From Collibacillus ludicampi (GTDB taxonomy: Bacteria; Bacillota; Bacilli; Tumebacillales; BOQE01): a DNA stretch of 64,000 nucleotides. How positions within the stretch are numbered: the first letter of the stretch is position 1; every line of letters begins with the position of its first letter. The stretch is from contig NZ_BOQE01000001.1 in the NCBI RefSeq assembly GCF_023705585.1, positions 1,191,341-1,255,340 on the forward strand, read 5' to 3'. Below, piece by piece: positions 300 to 63,705 of this stretch. A program made the translations under genes and the position numbers. The notes below the pieces were generated by a model. The model had not been told where the DNA came from, made no database searches, and saw nothing but the letters and a program-made list of their open reading frames with translations.

Positions 300-768
300 C
301 CCACAGGCCATTCATTCTCAAAGTAACCCTTCACTCCGCAAGCGGCGCCATCAGAGGATGAAAAGTTTCTTGTGCGGGAAGAGAGATTTAAGCTTCCTAA
401 TGCAACGGAGTATCTTTTGGGTGGGTTGTATCGCTTTGCAGCGCAGAGGTGAGTTGAAGGTCGTTCCGCTTCCCTATATCTCATTTAGAGGGCATATGCT
501 TTGCGTGAAACAGCGACTTTGGAGATCGTCTCGCCTCCTTTCGGATGTAAAAGGGTATATGCATTGCGCGTAATAGCGACTTTGAAGGTCGTCTCGCAAC
601 ATTTGATTATGATTCCATGCGAGACGACCTTCACGGAGCATAAGCGCAATGCATATACCCGCTGAAACGACCTCCACGGAGCATGAACGCAAAGCATATG
701 CCTCAAAGACGACCTTCATCGAACCCAAGCGCAAAGCGATACACCCACCCAAGCACTAGTTTTCAAAG
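300..768 (-). repeat. Nested palindromic repeat, copy 1 (three stem levels, minus orientation)
   Basis: Read on the minus strand, the outer arm starts near 757 (TGCTTGGGTGGGTGTATCGC). It is followed by two further left-arm modules, an inner stem around GAAGGTCGTCTCGCA with a short A+T loop near 600-615, and then the complementary right-arm modules ending near 419. A conserved tail, including TCTTCCCGCACAAG, runs from about 418 to 300. The innermost long module carries a paired substitution (A563 with T650) relative to other copies. Open frames through it are by-products of the repeat and have no ribosome binding sites. Confidence 0.9.
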
Positions 769-11652: not shown

Positions 11653-11965
11653 TTGAAAATGAGTGCTTGGGTGGATGTATCGCTTTGCGCTTGGGTTCTC
11701 TGAGGCATATGCTTTGCGCTTATGCTCCGTGAAGGTCGTCTCGCATGGAATTATAATCAAATGTTGCGAGACGACCTTCAAAGTCGCTATTACGCGCAAA
11801 GCATATACCTCTTAACGGTTTAAGGAAGCGGAACGACCTTCAACTCACCTCTGCGCTGCAAAGCGATACATCCACCAAAAGTAACTCTGTCGTTTATGGC
11901 AGCTTTAAATCTCTCTTCCCGCACAATAAACTTTTCATCTTCTGATGCGCCGCCGAAGCGGCATG
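11653..11965 (+). repeat. Nested palindromic repeat, copy 2 (two stem levels)
   Basis: The core runs from TGCTTGGGTGGATGTATCGC at 11663 to GCGATACATCCACC near 11876. The inner stem GAAGGTCGTCTCGCA with its complement flanks an A+T loop near 11755-11765. The left outer arm is shortened: after CTTGGGTTC it passes directly into CATATGCTTTGCGC. The common tail (CTCTTCCCGCACAATAAAC, then TTTTCATC) continues to about 11965, ending just before the stop of the oxidoreductase gene. Confidence 0.9.
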
Positions 11966-14433: not shown

Positions 14434-14612
14434 TATTGAAAATGAGTGCTTTGGTGGGCGTATGCTTTGCGCTCATGCTCCGTGAAGGTCGTCTCGCACA
14501 GAATATGATCAAATGTTGCGAGACGACCTCCAAAGTCGCTATTACGCGCAAAGCATTACGGCGCCCACCCAAAGACACTTTTCACTTTCCTGATTGAGAC
14601 ACTTTCTTCAGG
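14434..14612 (+). repeat. Nested palindromic repeat, copy 3 (single level, subtype B)
   Basis: One stem level only. The left arm reads GGTGGGCGTATGCTTTGCGC, then CATGCTCCGTGAAGGTCG; the right arm is GACGACCTCCAAAGTCGC and GCGCAAAGCATTACG ending in CGCCCACCC near 14571. The outer end GGTGGGCGTATGC differs from the usual GGTGGGTGTATCGC and is shared with copies 6 and 11. A short tail (CACTTTTCACTTTCCTG) follows to the stop of the RND gene. Confidence 0.88.
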
Positions 14613-20588: not shown

Positions 20589-21150
20589 AGATTGCTTGGG
20601 TGGGTATATCGCTTTGCGCTTGGGTTCGATGAAGGTCGCCTCAGCGGGTATATGCTTGGCGTTCATGCTCCGTGGAGGTCGTCATGGCGGGCATATGCTT
20701 GGCGTTCATGCTCCGTGGAGGTCGCTGTTTCACGCCAAGCATATGCTCCTTTAACGTTCCAAAGGAAGCGAGGCGACCTTCAAAGTCGCTATTACGCGCA
20801 ATGCATATACCCTTTCACATTCAAAAGAAAGCGAGACGACCTCCAAAGTCGCTTTTTCACGCCAAGCATAGGCCCTTTAACGTCCTAAAGGAAGCGAGGC
20901 GACCTTCAAGGTCGCTATTACGCACAAAGAATATGCCCTCTGAAACGGTTTAAAGGAAGCGGAACGGCCTTCAACTCACCTCTGCGCTGCAAAGCGATAC
21001 ATCCACCCAAAAGCCACTCAGTTTCTTGAGTTTGCCTTAAACTTCTCTTCCCGCAACAATCTACCCAGAAGGCACTCCGTGGCTTGTGGCAGACTTAAGC
21101 TTCTCTTCCCGCACATGTAACTTTTCATGTGACGCCGCTCGAGGCATGGC
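20589..21150 (+). repeat. Nested palindromic repeat, copy 4 (largest; extra stem modules)
   Basis: Core 20593-21009. The left side has three modules; the right side has five, two of them with CGCCAAGC instead of the usual CGCAAAGC. The left modules carry the matching TGCTTGGCG, so the change is compensated (G20701 with C20736). The outer arm GGGTATATCGCTTTGCGC pairs with GCAAAGCGATACATCCACC. The tail is present twice (CTTCTCTTCCCGCA at about 21040 and again at 21105), suggesting a tandem event. A small hairpin CGCCGATC/GATCGGCG follows at 21168-21196. Confidence 0.92.
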
Positions 21151-23416: not shown

Positions 23417-23645
23417 TGTTAATAAGTGCCTGGGTAGATAAATCGCTTTGCGCTTGGGTTCGGTGAAGGTCGTCCCGCACGGATTTTTACCAGAGGTTGC
23501 GGAACGACCTTCAACTCACCTCTGCGCTGCAAAGCGATTTATCCACCCAAAAGCCACTCTGTTACATGTGACAGCATTTCTCTATGCCCGCACAAGAAAC
23601 TTTTGATTCTCTGATGGAGCTGTTCGCAGCATTGGTGGCTTTCTT
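23417..23645 (+). repeat. Nested palindromic repeat, copy 5 (minimal, single level)
   Basis: Core 23427-23549. Only the outermost stem is present: TGGGTAGATAAATCGCTTTG and its partner CAAAGCGATTTATCCACCCA, joined through GAAGGTCG(T)CCCGCA, a loop near 23485-23495 and TGCGGAACGACCTTC. Relative to other copies two adjacent stem pairs changed together (23440 with 23540 and 23441 with 23539). The common tail follows to about 23640, where copy 6 begins. Confidence 0.92.
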
Positions 23646-23905
23646 GAAAATGTACGATCTGATGCGCGTATGCTTTGCGCTCATGCTCCCTGAAGGTCGT
23701 CTCGCACTGAACAATATTCAAATGTTGCGAGACGACCTCCAAGGTCGCTATTACGCGCAAAGCATATGCCCCCTTCACGGTCGAAAAGTAAACGAGACGA
23801 CCTCCAAGGTTGCTTTCTTACACAAAGCATTACGCCCACCCGAAGGCACTTTTCACTCTCTGCTGGCACCACTTGCGGCAAAGACGTACACACTTAAGAA
23901 TTTTT
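23646..23905 (+). repeat. Nested palindromic repeat, copy 6 (subtype B, asymmetric)
   Basis: Core about 23662-23840. A single left module (GCGTATGCTTTGCGCTCATG) faces two right modules, ending in CACAAAGCATTACGCCCACC. The inner stem GAAGGTCGTCTCGCA is perfect on its left side and has CTCC for TTC on its right. One left module has apparently been lost. It is in direct tandem with copy 5. Confidence 0.88.
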
Positions 23906-25385: not shown

Positions 25386-25740
25386 GATCATCATAGCTTG
25401 GTGGATTGTATCGCTTCAAGCTTGGGTTCGATGAATGTCAAGCGGTCATATGCTTTGCGTTCATGCTCCGTGGGGATCGTCTCAGCGGGTATATGCTTTG
25501 CGCTTATGCTCCGTGAAGGTCGTCTCGCATGAAATAATCATCAAATGTTGCGAGACGACCTTCAAAGTCGCTATTACGCGCAAAGCATATACCCCCTTTA
25601 ACGCCAAAAGGAAACGAGACGATCTCCAAAGTCGCTATCTCACGCGAAGCATATGACCTCTTAACACTTTATAAGGAGGCGGAACGACCTGCAACTCACC
25701 TCTGCGCTGTAAAGCGATACAACCCCAAAAGTTACCCTTG
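25386..25740 (+). repeat. Nested palindromic repeat, copy 7 (three levels, partly decayed)
   Basis: Core 25396-25727. Order of modules as in copy 8. The outer stem is worn: left ATTGTATCGCTTCAAGC against right CTGTAAAGCGATACAACC, with mismatches in the usual GCTTTGCGC. The inner stem GAAGGTCGTCTCGCA is perfect around a loop near 25530-25548. Ends some 20 bases from the stop of the next gene. Confidence 0.9.
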
Positions 25741-26169: not shown

Positions 26170-26600
26170 CGAAAATTAGTGCTTGGGTGGGTGTATCGCT
26201 TTGCGCTTGGGTTCGATGAAGGTCAAGCGGTCATATGCTTTGCGTTCATGCTCCGTGGAGGTCGTCTCAGCGGGTATATGCTTTGCGCTTATGCTCCGTG
26301 AAGGTCGTCTCGCATGGAATAATCTTTAAATGTTGCGAGACGACCTTCAAAGTCGCTATTACGCGCAAAGTATATACCCCCCTTAACGCCAAAAGGAAAC
26401 GAGACGACCTCCAAAGTCGCTGTTTCACGCAAAGCATATGACCTCTTAAGGCTTTATAAGGAAGCGGAACGACCTTCAACTCACCTCTGCGCCGCAAAGC
26501 GATTCAACCCACCCAAAAGCCACCCAGTTGCTTTTGAAAGACTAAGCACAGCTTGCCGCACGGGGGCTACCACGTAAACCACCCCAGTGCGTTCTTACAT
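26170..26600 (+). repeat. Nested palindromic repeat, copy 8 (three levels, best-preserved)
   Basis: Core 26180-26514; a useful type copy. Order: outer left (GGTGTATCGCTTTGCGC), middle left (CATATGCTTTGCGTTCATGC), inner left (TATATGCTTTGCGCTTATGC), perfect 15-bp inner stem with loop near 26317-26333, then inner right (TTACGCGCAAAGTATATACC), middle right (TTTCACGCAAAGCATATGAC), outer right (GCCGCAAAGCGATTCAACC). The tail extends to about 26560. The two arms of each level differ in their internal bulge (TTATGCTCCG on the left, TAATAGCGACTT on the right), so they are two fixed arm types. Confidence 0.93.
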
Positions 26601-27303: not shown

Positions 27304-28249
27304 CGGCCCGTTCCATCCCTTCAAAACCCACGACTTCTTTGATGATGTAGATCGGCCTTTTCTTCGCTTCGTCATAAATTTTGCTGATATAAATCCCGAT
27401 GATACCGAGAATAAAAATGATCAACCCTGCCAAAAACCAGATGGAGACGATGAGGCTGGGCCAGCCGATGATCCCTTTGATGCCGAGAAGCGCGCGAATC
27501 ACGATGTATAATGCGTAGAGAAACGAGAAAAACGACATGAAGAAGCCCAATTTCACCGTTAATCGCAAAGGTTTGTCCGAAAAGGAAATGATCACGTCAA
27601 ACGCGAGGTTCAACAAGCGTTTCCACGAATAACTCGATTTTCCTTGTTCTCGGCTCGCATGTTCGATTTCGATCGCGGTCGAGCGGAATCCCACCCATTT
27701 CACCATCGTGGGGAAAAAGCGCAATTTCTCCCGCATATTCACCAGTGTATCGATCACTTTGCGATGATAAATACCGAAATTCGCGATCGATGCGTCTTGC
27801 TCCGTATCGGTGAGGTAACTGAACACTTTGTAGAACAGTTTCGAGCTCATCCGTTTCAGCAAACGGTCCTGACGCTCCACTCTCTGACCAAAAACGATAT
27901 CATACCCTTCTTGCGCCTTGGCGTATAACTTGGGGATCTCCTCCGGTTGATCCTGCAGGTCACAATCCATGACCACCACCCAATCCCCCGATGCATAGTC
28001 CAGCCCCGCCGTTATCGCGTAATGCTGCCCGAAATTACGGGAAAAGTGGATTCCTTTCACCCGGCGATCCCGCCTGGACAGTTCCTGAATCACTTCCCAC
28101 GCGTGATCCGGACTGTTGTCGTTCACCATGATGATTTCAAAATCTGCCGTGATCGGTTCTAACGCCGCCCGCAAGCGGTTGTACAATTGCACCAGACAGG
28201 GGGCGCAGCGGTAAACCGGCGTGACGATCGAAATTTTAGCGCTTGCCAT
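27293..28249 (-). CDS. GT2 polyprenyl-phosphate sugar transferase (ArnC/GtrB-like)
   Basis: 318 residues. GT2 motifs VTPVYRCAP, VNDNSPDHAW, FSRNFGQHYAITAGLDYASG and MDCDLQDQPEEI, then two TM helices near 230-300. It is a second member of the GtrB/ArnC group in the window. It overlaps rmlB upstream by 14 bases and the WecD-like gene downstream by 11, so one operon makes a dTDP-sugar and loads a sugar on undecaprenyl phosphate. Loading of Fuc4NAc is the natural guess, not shown by the sequence. Confidence 0.88.
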   Translation of the reverse strand: MASAKISIVTPVYRCAPCLVQLYNRLRAALEPITADFEIIMVNDNSPDHAWEVIQELSRRDRRVKGIHFSRNFGQHYAITAGLDYASGDWVVVMDCDLQDQPEEIPKLYAKAQEGYDIVFGQRVERQDRLLKRMSSKLFYKVFSYLTDTEQDASIANFGIYHRKVIDTLVNMREKLRFFPTMVKWVGFRSTAIEIEHASREQGKSSYSWKRLLNLAFDVIISFSDKPLRLTVKLGFFMSFFSFLYALYIVIRALLGIKGIIGWPSLIVSIWFLAGLIIFILGIIGIYISKIYDEAKKRPIYIIKEVVGFEGMERADGR

Positions 28250-29267
28250 TTTTCAGATACCACTCCACCGTTTTGCGAAGTCCGTCTTCAAAAGTTACTT
28301 CCGCCCGCCACCCGAGTTCCCGTTCGATTTTTGCGGGATCGATCGCATAGCGCCAATCATGTCCGGGGCGATCGGTGACAAATTGGATCAAATCCCGATA
28401 ACTCGCATGCGCGGAAGGTCGATGCTCCAGAGCGATTTCGTCGAGAATTGCGCAAATCTTCGTGGCGATGTCGATGTTTCTCCGTTCGTTGCGTCCGCCG
28501 ATATTGTAGGTCTCGCCTACTCTCCCTTGATGAAATACGATATCGACCGCACGGCAATGATCGAGCACGTAGAGCCAATCGCGCACATTTTGTCCATTCC
28601 CGTAGATCGGAATCGGCTCCCCGGCCAGCGCTTTGCGGATGATCGTCGGGATCAGCTTTTCCGGGTGCTGTTTCGGCCCATAGTTGTTCGAACAATTGGT
28701 CGTGACAACGGGAAGGCCGTAGGTGTGAAAGTAACTGCGAACGAACAGATCGGAGCTGGCCTTGCTCGCGCTGTAAGGGCTGTTCGGGGCGTACGGCGTT
28801 TCTTCCGTGAAATAGCCGGTTTCTCCGAGCGTACCGTACACTTCATCGGTCGAAATATGATGGAACCGACAATTTTCGTAACCCCGTTTGAGCTTATGCG
28901 GGGCTTCCAGCCAATGCGCTTTGGCCACATCGAGCAGGGTGAACGTTCCATGCACATTGGTGCGCACGAATATATCCGGTTCCTTGATCGAGTTATCCAC
29001 ATGCGATTCGGCTGCAAAGTGGATCACACCGCGGATATCGTGCTCGCGAAACAGAGATTCCACCAACTCCCTGTCACAAATATCCCCTTGGACGAACGTA
29101 TACCGGGGATGATGTTCCACTTCACGCAGATTGTCCAGGTTCCCCGCGTAGGTCAGCTTGTCCAGGTTGACGATGCGATACTTCGGGTATGTTTCAAGAA
29201 AATAGAGGATGAAGTTCGAGCCGATAAAACCGGCTCCCCCGGTGATTAAGATGGTCGTTTGGTTCAT
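28236..29267 (-). CDS. rmlB: dTDP-glucose 4,6-dehydratase
   Basis: 343 residues, full length for the family. GGAGFIGSNFI binds NAD; HISTDEVYGTLG and YSASKASSDL carry the catalytic Asp-Glu pair and the Tyr-x-x-x-Lys; QHPEKLIPTII and GNGQNVRDWLYV are RmlB signatures. It makes dTDP-4-keto-6-deoxyglucose, which feeds both rhamnose (rmlC and rmlD at 42.9-45.3 kb) and the WecE branch next door. AAAGGA lies upstream of ATG 29267. First gene of the rmlB-GT2-wecD operon. Confidence 0.96.
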   Translation of the reverse strand: MNQTTILITGGAGFIGSNFILYFLETYPKYRIVNLDKLTYAGNLDNLREVEHHPRYTFVQGDICDRELVESLFREHDIRGVIHFAAESHVDNSIKEPDIFVRTNVHGTFTLLDVAKAHWLEAPHKLKRGYENCRFHHISTDEVYGTLGETGYFTEETPYAPNSPYSASKASSDLFVRSYFHTYGLPVVTTNCSNNYGPKQHPEKLIPTIIRKALAGEPIPIYGNGQNVRDWLYVLDHCRAVDIVFHQGRVGETYNIGGRNERRNIDIATKICAILDEIALEHRPSAHASYRDLIQFVTDRPGHDWRYAIDPAKIERELGWRAEVTFEDGLRKTVEWYLKNGKR

Positions 29268-29500
29268 GTATGGATCATTCCTTTGAAATTGCGTTTCAAA
29301 CATGGATACGAACGGCCTTCCGTTACTTTTTACAACTCTGATAGCAACATTTCGTTTTAAACAGAGTGTACAGATCTATTTAAGTATCAATTAAAAAAAC
29401 CCGTTTAAGAAGCAGTTACCCATGACAAGTGATTGGATAGGCGTCATGATTTTCGTGAAACAATGATTTTTGGAGGTTGTCTCGTTAGGTTGAAAATCAC
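29268..29500. promoter_or_regulatory. Upstream region of rmlB
   Basis: A+T-rich intergenic stretch between rmlB and repeat copy 9, expected to hold the rmlB operon promoter. I see no clear operator or terminator. Confidence 0.35.
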
Positions 29501-29790
29501 CTTGAAAGCCTGTGCTCGGGTGGGTGTATCGCTTTGCGCTTGGGTTCGATGAAGGTCAAGCGGTCATATGCTTTGCGCTTATGCTCCGTGAAGGTCGTCT
29601 CGCATGGAATAATCATTAAATGTTGCGAGACGACCTTCAAAGTCGCTTTTTCACGCAAAGCATATGACCTATTAACGGTTTAAAGGAAGCTGAACGACCT
29701 TCAACTCACCTCTACGCCGCAAAGCGATACCACCCACCCAAAAGTCACTATGTTGCTTGTGATTGCAATAGCACTAACGCTCATGCGGTA
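29501..29790 (+). repeat. Nested palindromic repeat, copy 9 (two levels; hybrid module)
   Basis: Core 29513-29740. The outer stem is as usual. The second level is a hybrid: on the left CATATGCTTTGCG of the middle module runs straight into CTTATGCTCCGTGAAGGTCG of the inner module; on the right the inner GACGACCTTCAAAGTCGC runs into TTTTTCACGCAAAGCATATG of the middle module. The same interval is thus missing from both arms, compared with copy 8. Loop near 29608-29622. Confidence 0.92.
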
Positions 29791-29808: not shown

Positions 29809-30735
29809 TTATTTTTTCATGGTCATGCCGTATTCGTGGTCAATCTGCTCCCAGTTATGGAGCACGTTTTCGCGCTGGGCGAGGTCGAACAGGTATTGCC
29901 CGTATTCGTTTCCTTTTAACCGTTCCGCCAATGCGAGCAATTGATCGCGGGTGATGTATCCCATTTTGTAAGCGATCTCTTCCAGGCAGGCAACTTTTAA
30001 ACCTTGCCGCGTTTCGATCGTCTCGATAAACTGGGAAGCCTGCAGCAACGACTCGTGCGTGCCAGTGTCCAGCCAGGCAAAACCGCGCCCGAGCAATTCC
30101 ACGTGCAAGTCTCCGCGTGCGAGGTATGCCTTGTTTACATCGGTAATCTCCAGTTCTCCTCGAGCGGATGGGGTGATCCGCTTGGCGATCTCGATGACAT
30201 CATTGTCGTAAAAATAAAGCCCCGTGACCGCAAAATCGGACAACGGATTCACCGGTTTCTCTTCCAGAGAAATCACCTTTCTGTTTTCATCGAAGGCGAC
30301 CACGCCGAAGCGGCTGGGATCTTTCACACGATAGCCGAAAATAGTGGCTCCCGATTCACGGCTCGCCGCTTTGCGCAACAAGTGCGTAAACCCTTGCCCG
30401 TAGAAGATGTTGTCACCGAGGATCAACGCCACACGATCCTTGCCGATAAAATCTTCTCCAATGAGAAACGCCTGCGCCAATCCGTCCGGCGACGGCTGCA
30501 CTTCATACGAGATCGACAAGCCCAACTCCTCTCCGCTGCCCAATAACTGTTGAAACCTTGGCGTATCCTCCGGGGTTGAGATGATCAAAATCTCGCGAAT
30601 CCCCGCCAACATGAGAACGGAAAGGGGATAATAGATCATCGGTTTATTATAAACGGGAAGAAGCTGCTTGGAAATCGCTTTGGTCAACGGATACAGACGC
30701 GTCCCGCTTCCTCCTGCGAGAATGATTCCTTTCAT
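29809..30735 (-). CDS. rmlA: Glucose-1-phosphate thymidylyltransferase
   Basis: 308 residues. [18 protein letters not shown] with the [16 protein letters not shown] segment is the RmlA signature; DNIFYGQG, SLEEKPxxP-type [15 protein letters not shown] and [15 protein letters not shown] complete the active site. It makes dTDP-glucose from Glc-1-P and dTTP, the first step towards dTDP-rhamnose and dTDP-Fuc4NAc. GAGGAG precedes the ATG. It is separated from rmlB by repeat copy 9, so the original rmlAB pair may have been pushed apart by the repeat. Confidence 0.97.
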
Positions 30736-37362: not shown

Positions 37363-38941
37363 TTACGTATTCTTTTTTATAGCCCGGCAGGTAAGCGGTA
37401 GGCTTTCTGACCAAGGGAGAAGCTGATCTAAGGAATCTTTGTCTTTCATATCTAGGTTAGGTAGTTTCTCAAAGAGATAGGTAAGATAGGAATAGGGATG
37501 TAATCCATTTTCTTTCGCTGTCTCTATGATACTGTAAATGATCGCACTCGCCTTTGCACCACGCGGGGTATTGGAGAACAACCAGTTTTTGCGACCGATC
37601 ACAAACGGTTTGATCGCGCGTTCACTTCGGTTGTTATCGATCTCCAATCGCCCATCTTGTAAAAACGCCTCTAATTTTTCCCACTGGTTCAGACAATACA
37701 AGATTGCCTGACCGAACGCACTTTTGGGCAACACTTTCGGTTTCTGGGTACGTAGCCATGCCAAAAAAGCATCCAACACAGGGCGGCTGCGTTCTTGACG
37801 GATTTGGTAACGTTCCTCAGGCGTGCACTCCTTTAAGTCCCGTTCAATCGCAAAGAGTTGATTGCAGAAATTGAGTCCCTCTTTGGCTGCTACCGGTGAC
37901 GAGCGCTTCGATTCAGGCAGCGCCTTGAGTGCCTCATCGAATTTGCGCCGGGCGTGAGCCCAACAACCGACCAGGGTCACATCCGGTATCCCATGGTAAC
38001 CCGCATAGCCATCGACGTGCAGGTACCCTTTGAAACCGGAAAGAAACTGACGCGGGTGTTTGCTCGCCCGTGTCGTCTGGTAGTCATAGAGGATGATGGC
38101 CGGACCTTCTCTCCCGGTGCGGTACAGCCATAGATAAGAAGTCGTCTGTGCGGCCCGACCCGGTTCGCGGAGCACTTGTAAGGTCGTCTCGTCTGCGTGC
38201 AGAATGTCCTGCTTGAGTAAGTGCTCGCGCATGCGATCATAGAGCAGACTCAACCAGGTATTCGCTCCGTAGAGGATCCAGTTGGCCAGGGTCTGACGAG
38301 ACAACTCAATCCCCAGGCTTGCAAACTGTTGCTCTTGTCGGTAGAGAGGCATGCTCTCCACATATTTTTGACTCATGATATAGGCCATACTGGAAGAAGA
38401 AGCCAAACTCCCCGGAAAGACGGGGGCAGGCATAGAGGCTGTGACTATCGGCGTACTTGTCTCCTCACGCTCACAACGGCGGCAGGAGTAGACGTAACGG
38501 ACATGCTTGACCACTTTGACTTCGGCCGTTAATCTTCAGCTCTTGCCGTATCTCCGTGCTCATTTCATGCAAAGAACCACCGCAACACGAACAAACCTGC
38601 TCCTCAGATGGCAGGCGATACTCGATCGTCTCCACTGGCAGGTTTTCAAGCAGGGTTTCCCGGTGGCCGCGTTTTTTGGAGCGGCGGTACGTAATGGTTT
38701 CGAGGGTAGGCTCCTCTACAGTGGGATCTGCCTCCACCTCGGCTTCGTTAAAAAGCTCAAGCTGATCGGCATTCGTTCGTTCGCTCGAAGAGCCAAACCG
38801 GCGCTGTTGGCTAAGACGAAACTGCTCCTCATACCACTTCAGTTTGGCGGTCAGTTCCGCATTTTGCTTTTTCAGCCAATCGCATTCTTTTTGGAGATCT
38901 TCTATTGTAGTAGGGGTCGGGTTCAATGTATGATTTTTCAT
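37363..38941 (-). pseudogene. tnpC: IS66 TnpC transposase, frameshifted
   Basis: The N-terminal part from ATG 38941 has the leucine-rich helical start (LQKECDWLKKQNAELTAKL), then RRFGSSSERT and the zinc-binding CSCCGGSLHEM. Near 38527-38532 the frame shifts by one base (ELKING in one frame, [18 protein letters not shown] in the next). The rest is a normal IS66 DDE domain, with [31 protein letters not shown] and the C-terminal [17 protein letters not shown]. Unless the shift is a sequencing error or is bypassed, the transposase is not made. Confidence 0.9.
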
Positions 38942-63244: not shown

Positions 63245-63476
63245 GATTGAAAATCAGTGCTTGGGTGGGTGTATCGCTTTGCGCTTGGGTTCGATGAAGG
63301 TCATTCCGCTCGAATTCCTTACAGAAGTTGCGGAACGACCTTCAACTCACCTCTACGCCGCAAAGCGATACAACCCACCCAAAAGCCACTTCGTTTCTTA
63401 TGCGACCTTAATCCTCTCTTTACGCCAAGCAACTTTTCATACTTCGATTGAGCCATTTGTTGAATGAAACTCCCTT
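63245..63476 (+). repeat. Nested palindromic repeat, copy 10 (minimal, single level)
   Basis: Core 63258-63380. Only the outer stem: TGGGTGGGTGTATCGCTTTG and GCAAAGCGATACAACCCACC, with GAAGGTCATTCCGC and GCGGAACGACCTTC closing around a loop near 63311-63322. The tail (CGCCAAGCAACTTTTCAT form) runs to copy 11. Confidence 0.92.
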
Positions 63477-63705
63477 TGGCCGGGCGTAGTGCTTTGCGTG
63501 AGACAGCGACTTTGGAGATCGTCTCGCTTCCTTTTGGGCAGTAAGGGGTATATGCTTTGCGCGTAATATCGACTTTGAAGGTCGTCTCGCAACATTTGAT
63601 CATATTCTGTACGAGACGACCTTCACGGAGCATGAGCGCAAAGCATATACCCCGTAAGACGACCTCCACGGAGCACGAACGCAAAGCATACGCCCGGTAC
63701 AACAC
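63477..63705 (-). repeat. Nested palindromic repeat, copy 11 (two levels, minus orientation, subtype B)
   Basis: Core 63478-63698, inverted with respect to copy 10, so the tail of copy 10 abuts it directly. On the minus strand: CCGGGCGTATGCTTTGCGTT, then the inner module with TATATGCTTTGCGCTCATGC, stem GAAGGTCGTCTCG, loop near 63595-63610 and the right modules ending GTGCTTTGCG on the plus strand at 63490. Confidence 0.9.

Follow-up and report, generated by a model that had tools for sequence, protein, structure and literature searches.

BOX elements of Streptococcus pneumoniae and S. suis contain a variable number of modules and measure 67-637 bp in pneumococcus (PMC3049150). The chromosome of Collibacillus ludicampi carries about 200 dispersed hairpin repeats of nested-ring build, which resemble BOX elements in being intergenic, modular and probably non-autonomous, with base-paired ends and a capacity to fold as single strands (PMC3049150). 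The boxB modules of BOX elements are flanked by boxA and boxC and show little pairing with either, whereas the modules described here are left and right partners that are added concentrically and have internal loops of their own. A boxA-boxB-boxC order with an unpaired tandem middle module was seen in none of these elements.

A second likeness is to the REPIN/REP and RAYT system (PMC3116915), in which hundreds of extragenic hairpin copies, partly in tandem clusters, are thought to spread as single-strand hairpins. The units here differ in being 100-400 nt long with stacked levels, and no Y1 transposase was found in the genome. A REPIN is a hairpin of two inverted short REPs; the single-level copies here are hairpins with paired ends, in units of about 100 nt or more. 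MITEs, as described in PMC3049150, are likewise short, non-coding and intergenic, occur in many copies and have pairing inverted-repeat ends, here GTGCTTGGGTGGG and CCCACCCAAAAG; however, neither of the marks of a MITE, target-site duplication and a parent transposon, was identified for this family, in which CTAYCTTGAAAA, conserved at the left end and beyond the right end, is at most a candidate for such a duplication. The family is best filed as a modular dispersed hairpin repeat, nearest to BOX in its behaviour and set apart by its concentric paired modules.

The elements were collected by a weight-matrix scan with four module matrices, for the left and right outer modules (Lo, Ro) and the left and right inner modules (Lm, Rm). 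The scan covered about 105 genome stretches with their flanks, together with the window, the 64,000-nt stretch of contig C1 analysed here, and yielded a nearly but not fully complete set of 205 parsed elements with 645 modules. Both arms were present in 177 elements, and arms held one to five modules, which makes these modules of variable copy number inside a dispersed intergenic repeat. Pattern counts over the genome (4.09 Mb in 7 contigs, nearly complete) gave 208 right inner and 112 right outer modules. In the window alone, GAAGGTCGTCTCG with up to 2 mismatches occurred 38 times against 1.1 expected, so the repeats are not a product of chance. The family is mostly intergenic and non-coding, and the copy on which this work centred, copy 9, is flanked by a sugar-nucleotide dehydratase gene (28236-29303, minus strand; PF16363) and a nucleotidyltransferase gene (29809-30735, minus strand; PF00483).

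The family looks new and undescribed among the libraries searched. A literature search found no nested or modular palindromic repeats of this type, a plasmid collection searched with copy 9 gave zero matches, and a contig search with the flanking dehydratase returned distant relatives only and no near strain. Against the 4227 families of Rfam the copy 9 locus was empty at E values up to 1, and the window gave a single family, a c-di-GMP-I riboswitch aptamer (RF01051; 3993-4076, plus strand, 80 bits). Two other candidates were set aside. Copy 9 was rejected as an intrinsic terminator, as its stem has no T-run after it on either strand, and a 22-nt exact match in a genome of the same order was taken as chance, since it apparently falls in a coding sequence and lacks a surrounding hairpin.

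Each element is built of concentric levels, an outer level of type O and inner levels whose stems are of type T (GCTTTGCG), A (GCATTGCG) or G (GCTTGGCG). Within a level, an internal loop that is asymmetric (CTCATGCTCCG on the left, AAAGTCGCTATTAC on the right) separates stem 1 from stem 2, and successive levels are joined by a short linker on the left arm and by a linker of about 20 nt on the right arm. The ends of the outermost O level, named above, are terminal inverted repeats in most copies, and the ends of lone inner-type elements are similar to them. Spacing is rigid: neighbouring left modules lie 42-45 nt apart (n=67, period 43 nt), neighbouring right modules 60-65 nt apart (n=47, period 64 nt), and the distance across the apex is about 62 nt. 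Many elements (for example 189296, 718719 and 2062404 on C1) have the motif CTAYCTTGAAAA at their left end and again some 60 to 110 nt beyond their right end. This motif is shared by elements that lie in tandem at fixed spacing, with 121-126 nt from the inner right module of one to the outer left module of the next.

The stems covary. Among 38 distinct innermost levels, 94.4% of cells pair as compared with 90.0% after shuffling, both sides have changed in 11 pairs, and covariation scores 0.169 versus 0.089 for shuffled and at most 0.094 for slid structures; these counts are not independent events, because part of the signal is inherited by level type. Stem pairing is maintained in the family.

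The window contains copies of different depth, which we denote by codes that give the left modules before and the right modules after a slash. Copies 5 (23427-23553, plus strand) and 10 (63260-63386, plus strand) are single-level outer-type elements (O/O), and copy 3 (14450-14575, plus strand) is a single-level inner-type element (T/T). Two levels are found in copy 2 (11665-11881, plus strand; OT/TO), copy 9 and copy 11 (63480-63700, minus strand; TT/TT). Three levels are found in copy 1 (417-754, minus strand; OTA/ATO), copy 7 (25395-25720, plus strand; OTT/TCO) and copy 8 (26180-26510, plus strand; OTT/TTO), the last also supported by its fold. Copy 4 (20595-21010, plus strand; OGG/AGTO plus a partial right G module) is unbalanced, with three left and four and a half right modules, as is copy 6 (23655-23842, plus strand; T/TT), with one left and two right modules. 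A preliminary description of this stretch had listed these depths correctly for copies 1, 2, 5 and 7-11; it omitted copies 3 and 6 and credited copy 4 merely with more levels than the others.

Copy 9 (29512-29748, plus strand; OT/TO) was delimited by the module scan and by folding and consists of an outer O level around one inner T level, with all of its parts on the plus strand. Its left outer module Lo (29527-29560), located by position-weight scan, contains stem 1 (TATCGCTTTGCG), the loop (CTTGGGTTCG) and the start of stem 2. The left inner module Lm (29567-29599) is composite: its stem 1 is of the type found in the middle level of copy 8, its loop and stem 2 are of the type found in the inner level of copy 8, and the junction between them falls within ATATGCTTTGCG. 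The apex TCGCATGGAATAATCATTAAATGTTGCGA (29600-29628), for which the fold was also used, is followed by the right inner module Rm (29629-29664), in which the junction falls within CAAAGTCGCT and is succeeded by sequence of the middle-level type, TTTTTCACGCAAAGCATATGACC. The right outer module Ro (29693-29729) was again located by position-weight scan.

Direct alignment of copy 8 (26177-26530) with copy 9 (29510-29745) showed two intervals present in copy 8 only, 43 nt on the left arm (26233-26275, plus strand) and 64 nt on the right arm (26348-26411, plus strand). These are exactly one left-arm period and one right-arm period, and the remaining differences in the body are one single-base gap and scattered differences. 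The absence of one level from both arms of copy 9, as had been proposed, is therefore real, and the stem does stay paired: copy 9 folds as a single long stem at -125.1 kcal/mol (z -10.5) and copy 8 folds at -181.2 kcal/mol (z -13.0), both far better than shuffled sequence. The accompanying proposal that the two junctions lie at equivalent points needs correction. They lie in matching modules, yet they are offset. The sequence allows the left junction anywhere in the shared ATATGCTTTGCG and the right junction anywhere in the shared CAAAGTCGCT, but the last pair of stem 1 before the internal loop reads T-A in the middle level of copy 8, C-G in its inner level and C-A in copy 9. This mismatch places the left junction below that pair and the right junction above it, so that the junctions are not opposite one another.

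Copy 9 is plausibly a derived copy that has lost a level, which is the simplest reading of the direction of change. The signature GTCAAGCGGTCATATG is common to four elements, three of which (copies 7 and 8 and the element at 2271051) have three levels, and the middle-level stem of copy 9 is 100% identical on both sides to that of the three-level copy 2271051, located 1.05 Mb away. Copy 9 is also a mosaic, a point in favour of interior exchange: copy 8 is the nearest match of its interior (98.6%), and other copies are nearest to its outer right end. Taken by itself, copy 9 is equally compatible with a single replacement of its interior and with two deletions of one period each. In the second case each arm would have undergone a direct-repeat deletion of its own, and selection for complete pairing of the stem would have acted afterwards or at the same time. 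We consider this possible, with rather less than even odds, and several features of copy 9 speak for it: the missing pieces are single whole periods, they are flanked by direct repeats that share 12 and 10 nt, and the offset junctions with their C-A mismatch fit two events, as does the preference for pairing indicated by covariation. Genome-wide evidence favours interior replacement for copy 9, and the offset junctions mildly favour two deletions.

Across the genome the arms are strongly coupled. Left and right module numbers are equal in 120 of the 144 elements that have both arms and both ends, whereas 5000 trials with permuted right counts gave 55 balanced elements on average and never more than 78, and stem types agree in 70 of 74 comparisons within a level versus 13 of 52 across levels. 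Among 122 pairs whose identity in outer levels and flanks reaches 95% or more, 73 differ in depth, and of these (the pairs are not independent) 61 differ symmetrically and 12 asymmetrically; a best-partner count at 90% identity or more gave 42 symmetric and 18 asymmetric differences. The change can span more than one level, as in OTA/ATO at 1191769 and O/O at 2387166, which are separated by a symmetric jump of two levels and have outer parts that are 98.3% identical. Depth thus usually changes by whole levels on both arms.

The remaining 24 of the 144 complete elements, about one in six, are unbalanced (15 left-heavy, 9 right-heavy), and lopsidedness rises to 17 of 28 where an arm carries at least three modules. 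The level series of the short arm is a subsequence of that of the long arm in 20 of the 24 unbalanced elements, as one-arm gain or loss would give. Two elements show this most clearly. In TAAAA/AT (708238-708571, L142), five left modules face two right modules, and the four left A modules are nearly identical, lie in tandem and face one right A; OGAAA/AGO (3627701-3628100, L201) has three tandem left A modules versus one right A. Both are natural cases of one-arm tandem amplification. In element 808510 the left arm has a fusion at TTTGCG, where copy 9 has its left junction too, and the right arm is intact. Matched level loss is consequently the usual outcome and not an obligatory one. The expectation that left and right breakpoints always coincide does not survive these elements, and, as far as paralogues of one genome can tell, independent gain or loss of arm modules applies to a minority of copies and not to the balanced majority.

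A strict rule of symmetry, with lopsided copies misassembled or with modules decayed past recognition by the scan, seems to us extremely improbable. Such repeats are indeed hard to assemble from short reads, but the rigid spacing of 43, 62 and 64 nt means that any module overlooked by the scan should show up as a gap, and gaps are lacking from most lopsided copies; two lopsided copies also lie in the window, in a nearly complete genome of 7 contigs.

The frequency of one-arm changes, the pure left-arm tandem gains and the left fusion of 808510 standing alone all agree with two independent deletions. The balanced depth differences, which outnumber one-sided ones by about 5 to 1 among the closest pairs, argue against this explanation, and a symmetric jump of two levels between copies with 98% identical outer parts would require four events. 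Nor would deletion alone uncouple the similarities of outer and inner modules. In the 46 O-type elements that have several levels, similarity of the outer left correlates with that of the outer right (Mantel 0.31, p 0.001; 0.27, p 0.002 in unpaired stretches only), whereas outer and inner modules are uncorrelated (0.095, -0.02, 0.12 and -0.03, none below p 0.08). In unpaired stretches there are weak outer-inner correlations, between outer left and apex (0.117, p 0.008) and between outer left and right inner loop (0.116, p 0.048). Inner left and inner right are coupled mostly in paired bases, with only 0.044 (p 0.31) in the unpaired loops, and this coupling can therefore be due to compensation instead of common ancestry. 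Across 19 elements the innermost A cassette is 98.7% identical, while their same-type outer left modules average 86.8%. The Mantel pattern, the depth differences of near-identical pairs and the uniform A cassette together fit block replacement of the interior.

We accordingly favour, at a probability of roughly 55%, a reading in which dispersed copies exchange entire interior cassettes through ectopic gene conversion, with one-arm slippage as noise. On each arm all levels begin and end almost alike, and these near-identical borders would enable dispersed copies to recombine at non-equivalent levels. A single ectopic conversion tract running from the left arm through the apex into the right arm would replace the whole interior, and would add or remove levels on both arms simultaneously. 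Copy 9 most likely lost its level in this manner, from a three-level ancestor of the type of copy 7, copy 8 or 2271051. Separately, repeat slippage on one arm would add or delete 43-nt left or 64-nt right periods and so generate the lopsided minority, many members of which are probably cleared by weak selection for pairing. The roles given here to gene conversion and to selection are suggested by comparison of paralogues within one genome.

A different way to shorten both arms is seen on C1 at 112900 (L123), where an outer element lacks stem 2 and the apex and retains stem 1 on both sides, apparently through one plain deletion across the tip. A simple deletion can thus shorten both arms when the apex goes too.

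Loss of matched pieces from both arms at once had originally been attributed to slippage in a cruciform or to hairpin-primed copying, and template switching of this kind has been put forward as a way in which hairpin stems arise and are repaired (PMC8794818). Such quasipalindrome correction resembles the present case in altering both arms in one event, as the predominance of symmetric depth differences would have it, and the family includes one likely product, a near-perfect palindrome at 621834-622031 (minus strand, C1, L138), whose two inner modules, left and right, are reverse complements of each other and in which a single arm-to-arm template switch probably took place. The difference lies in what becomes of arm asymmetry. 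Template switching should render the internal loops perfectly complementary, but the asymmetric loops are kept in nearly all copies, as are the linkers of about 20 nt that occur on the right arm only, and the scan gave this one element with a reversed-complement arm. The junctions of copy 9 are moreover not opposite, and one-arm changes are frequent. As the only mode template switching is already refuted, and as the main route to copy 9 and its like we regard it as quite unlikely; nor is cruciform or hairpin-primed copying needed, because interior exchange is one event that alters both arms.

The direction of change would be reversed if a small inner element had transposed into the apex of others, which would make deeper copies gains and the depth of copy 9 ancestral. 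Lone inner-type T/T elements do exist, with GGGCG...CGCCC ends of their own, A and G levels occur almost only inside other elements, and the A cassette is young and uniform. Multi-level copies nevertheless read without a split version of the 22-nt apex of single-level O elements and have the short left and ~20-nt right linkers in its place, an unsystematic look at the level borders noticed no target duplication, and three-level copies make up 3 of the 4 that carry the copy 9 signature, which favours loss. We consider such nested insertion very unlikely.

The roughly 200 copies have typed levels that can be counted separately on the two arms, and in them symmetric exchange, one-arm slippage and copying from arm to arm can be told apart by the traces they leave. 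The relative rates of the three processes thus become measurable in one genome, which touches on two long-standing questions: what keeps the two arms of a long hairpin matched, and how concerted evolution of dispersed bacterial repeats comes about.

The elements are also biased in orientation. With dnaA at 1487474 on C1 and a second GC-skew switch near 3.5-3.6 Mb, 132 of 177 two-armed elements share the same orientation relative to replication, as do 73 of 100 outer right modules (p 5e-6). An apparent antisense relation to genes was set aside, because replication direction accounts for it at least as well, the bias persisting in convergent and divergent gaps. Orientation bias of this kind is known among elements that move in single-stranded form, and IS200/IS605 elements are described as targeting the lagging-strand template (PMC6006769). 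The fact that 75% of two-armed elements share an orientation relative to replication underlies a further reading, in which the hairpins telescope and the unit of change is the folded strand: a single event on the folded single strand, as an intermediate at the replication fork, would add or remove matched levels. Depth would then be a heritable, concerted trait rather than the sum of two arm histories. We hold this to be unlikely.

The Y1 transposase domain PF01797, the domain of IS200/IS605 TnpA and also of RAYTs, had no match in the C. ludicampi genome and matched in 5 of 14 control genomes. With no Y1 transposase encoded, the mobiliser may have been lost or may be of another sort. An IS66-family transposase gene is present elsewhere in the window (37363-38514, minus strand).

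A covariance model of the level, searched against 300 genomes of the class, gave strong matches in the C. ludicampi genome only. Weak matches of 40-45 bits were obtained in one genome of the same order (G004) and one of the same class (G060), a range in which palindromes score as such; the elements of the C. ludicampi genome themselves score 33-68 bits on the wrong strand too. G004 contains about a dozen copies of a hairpin (L209, L212, L220-L232) with similar, G-rich ends and a similar stem 2, GATCGTCTTGC. This hairpin family is a possible distant relative, its homology being unproven because palindromes score on the wrong strand also. The match in G060 is a lone hairpin (L210, 1501-1608) that shares both strands of the internal loop (GCTCCGT and AAAGTCGCT) with the inner level and differs from it in its stems.
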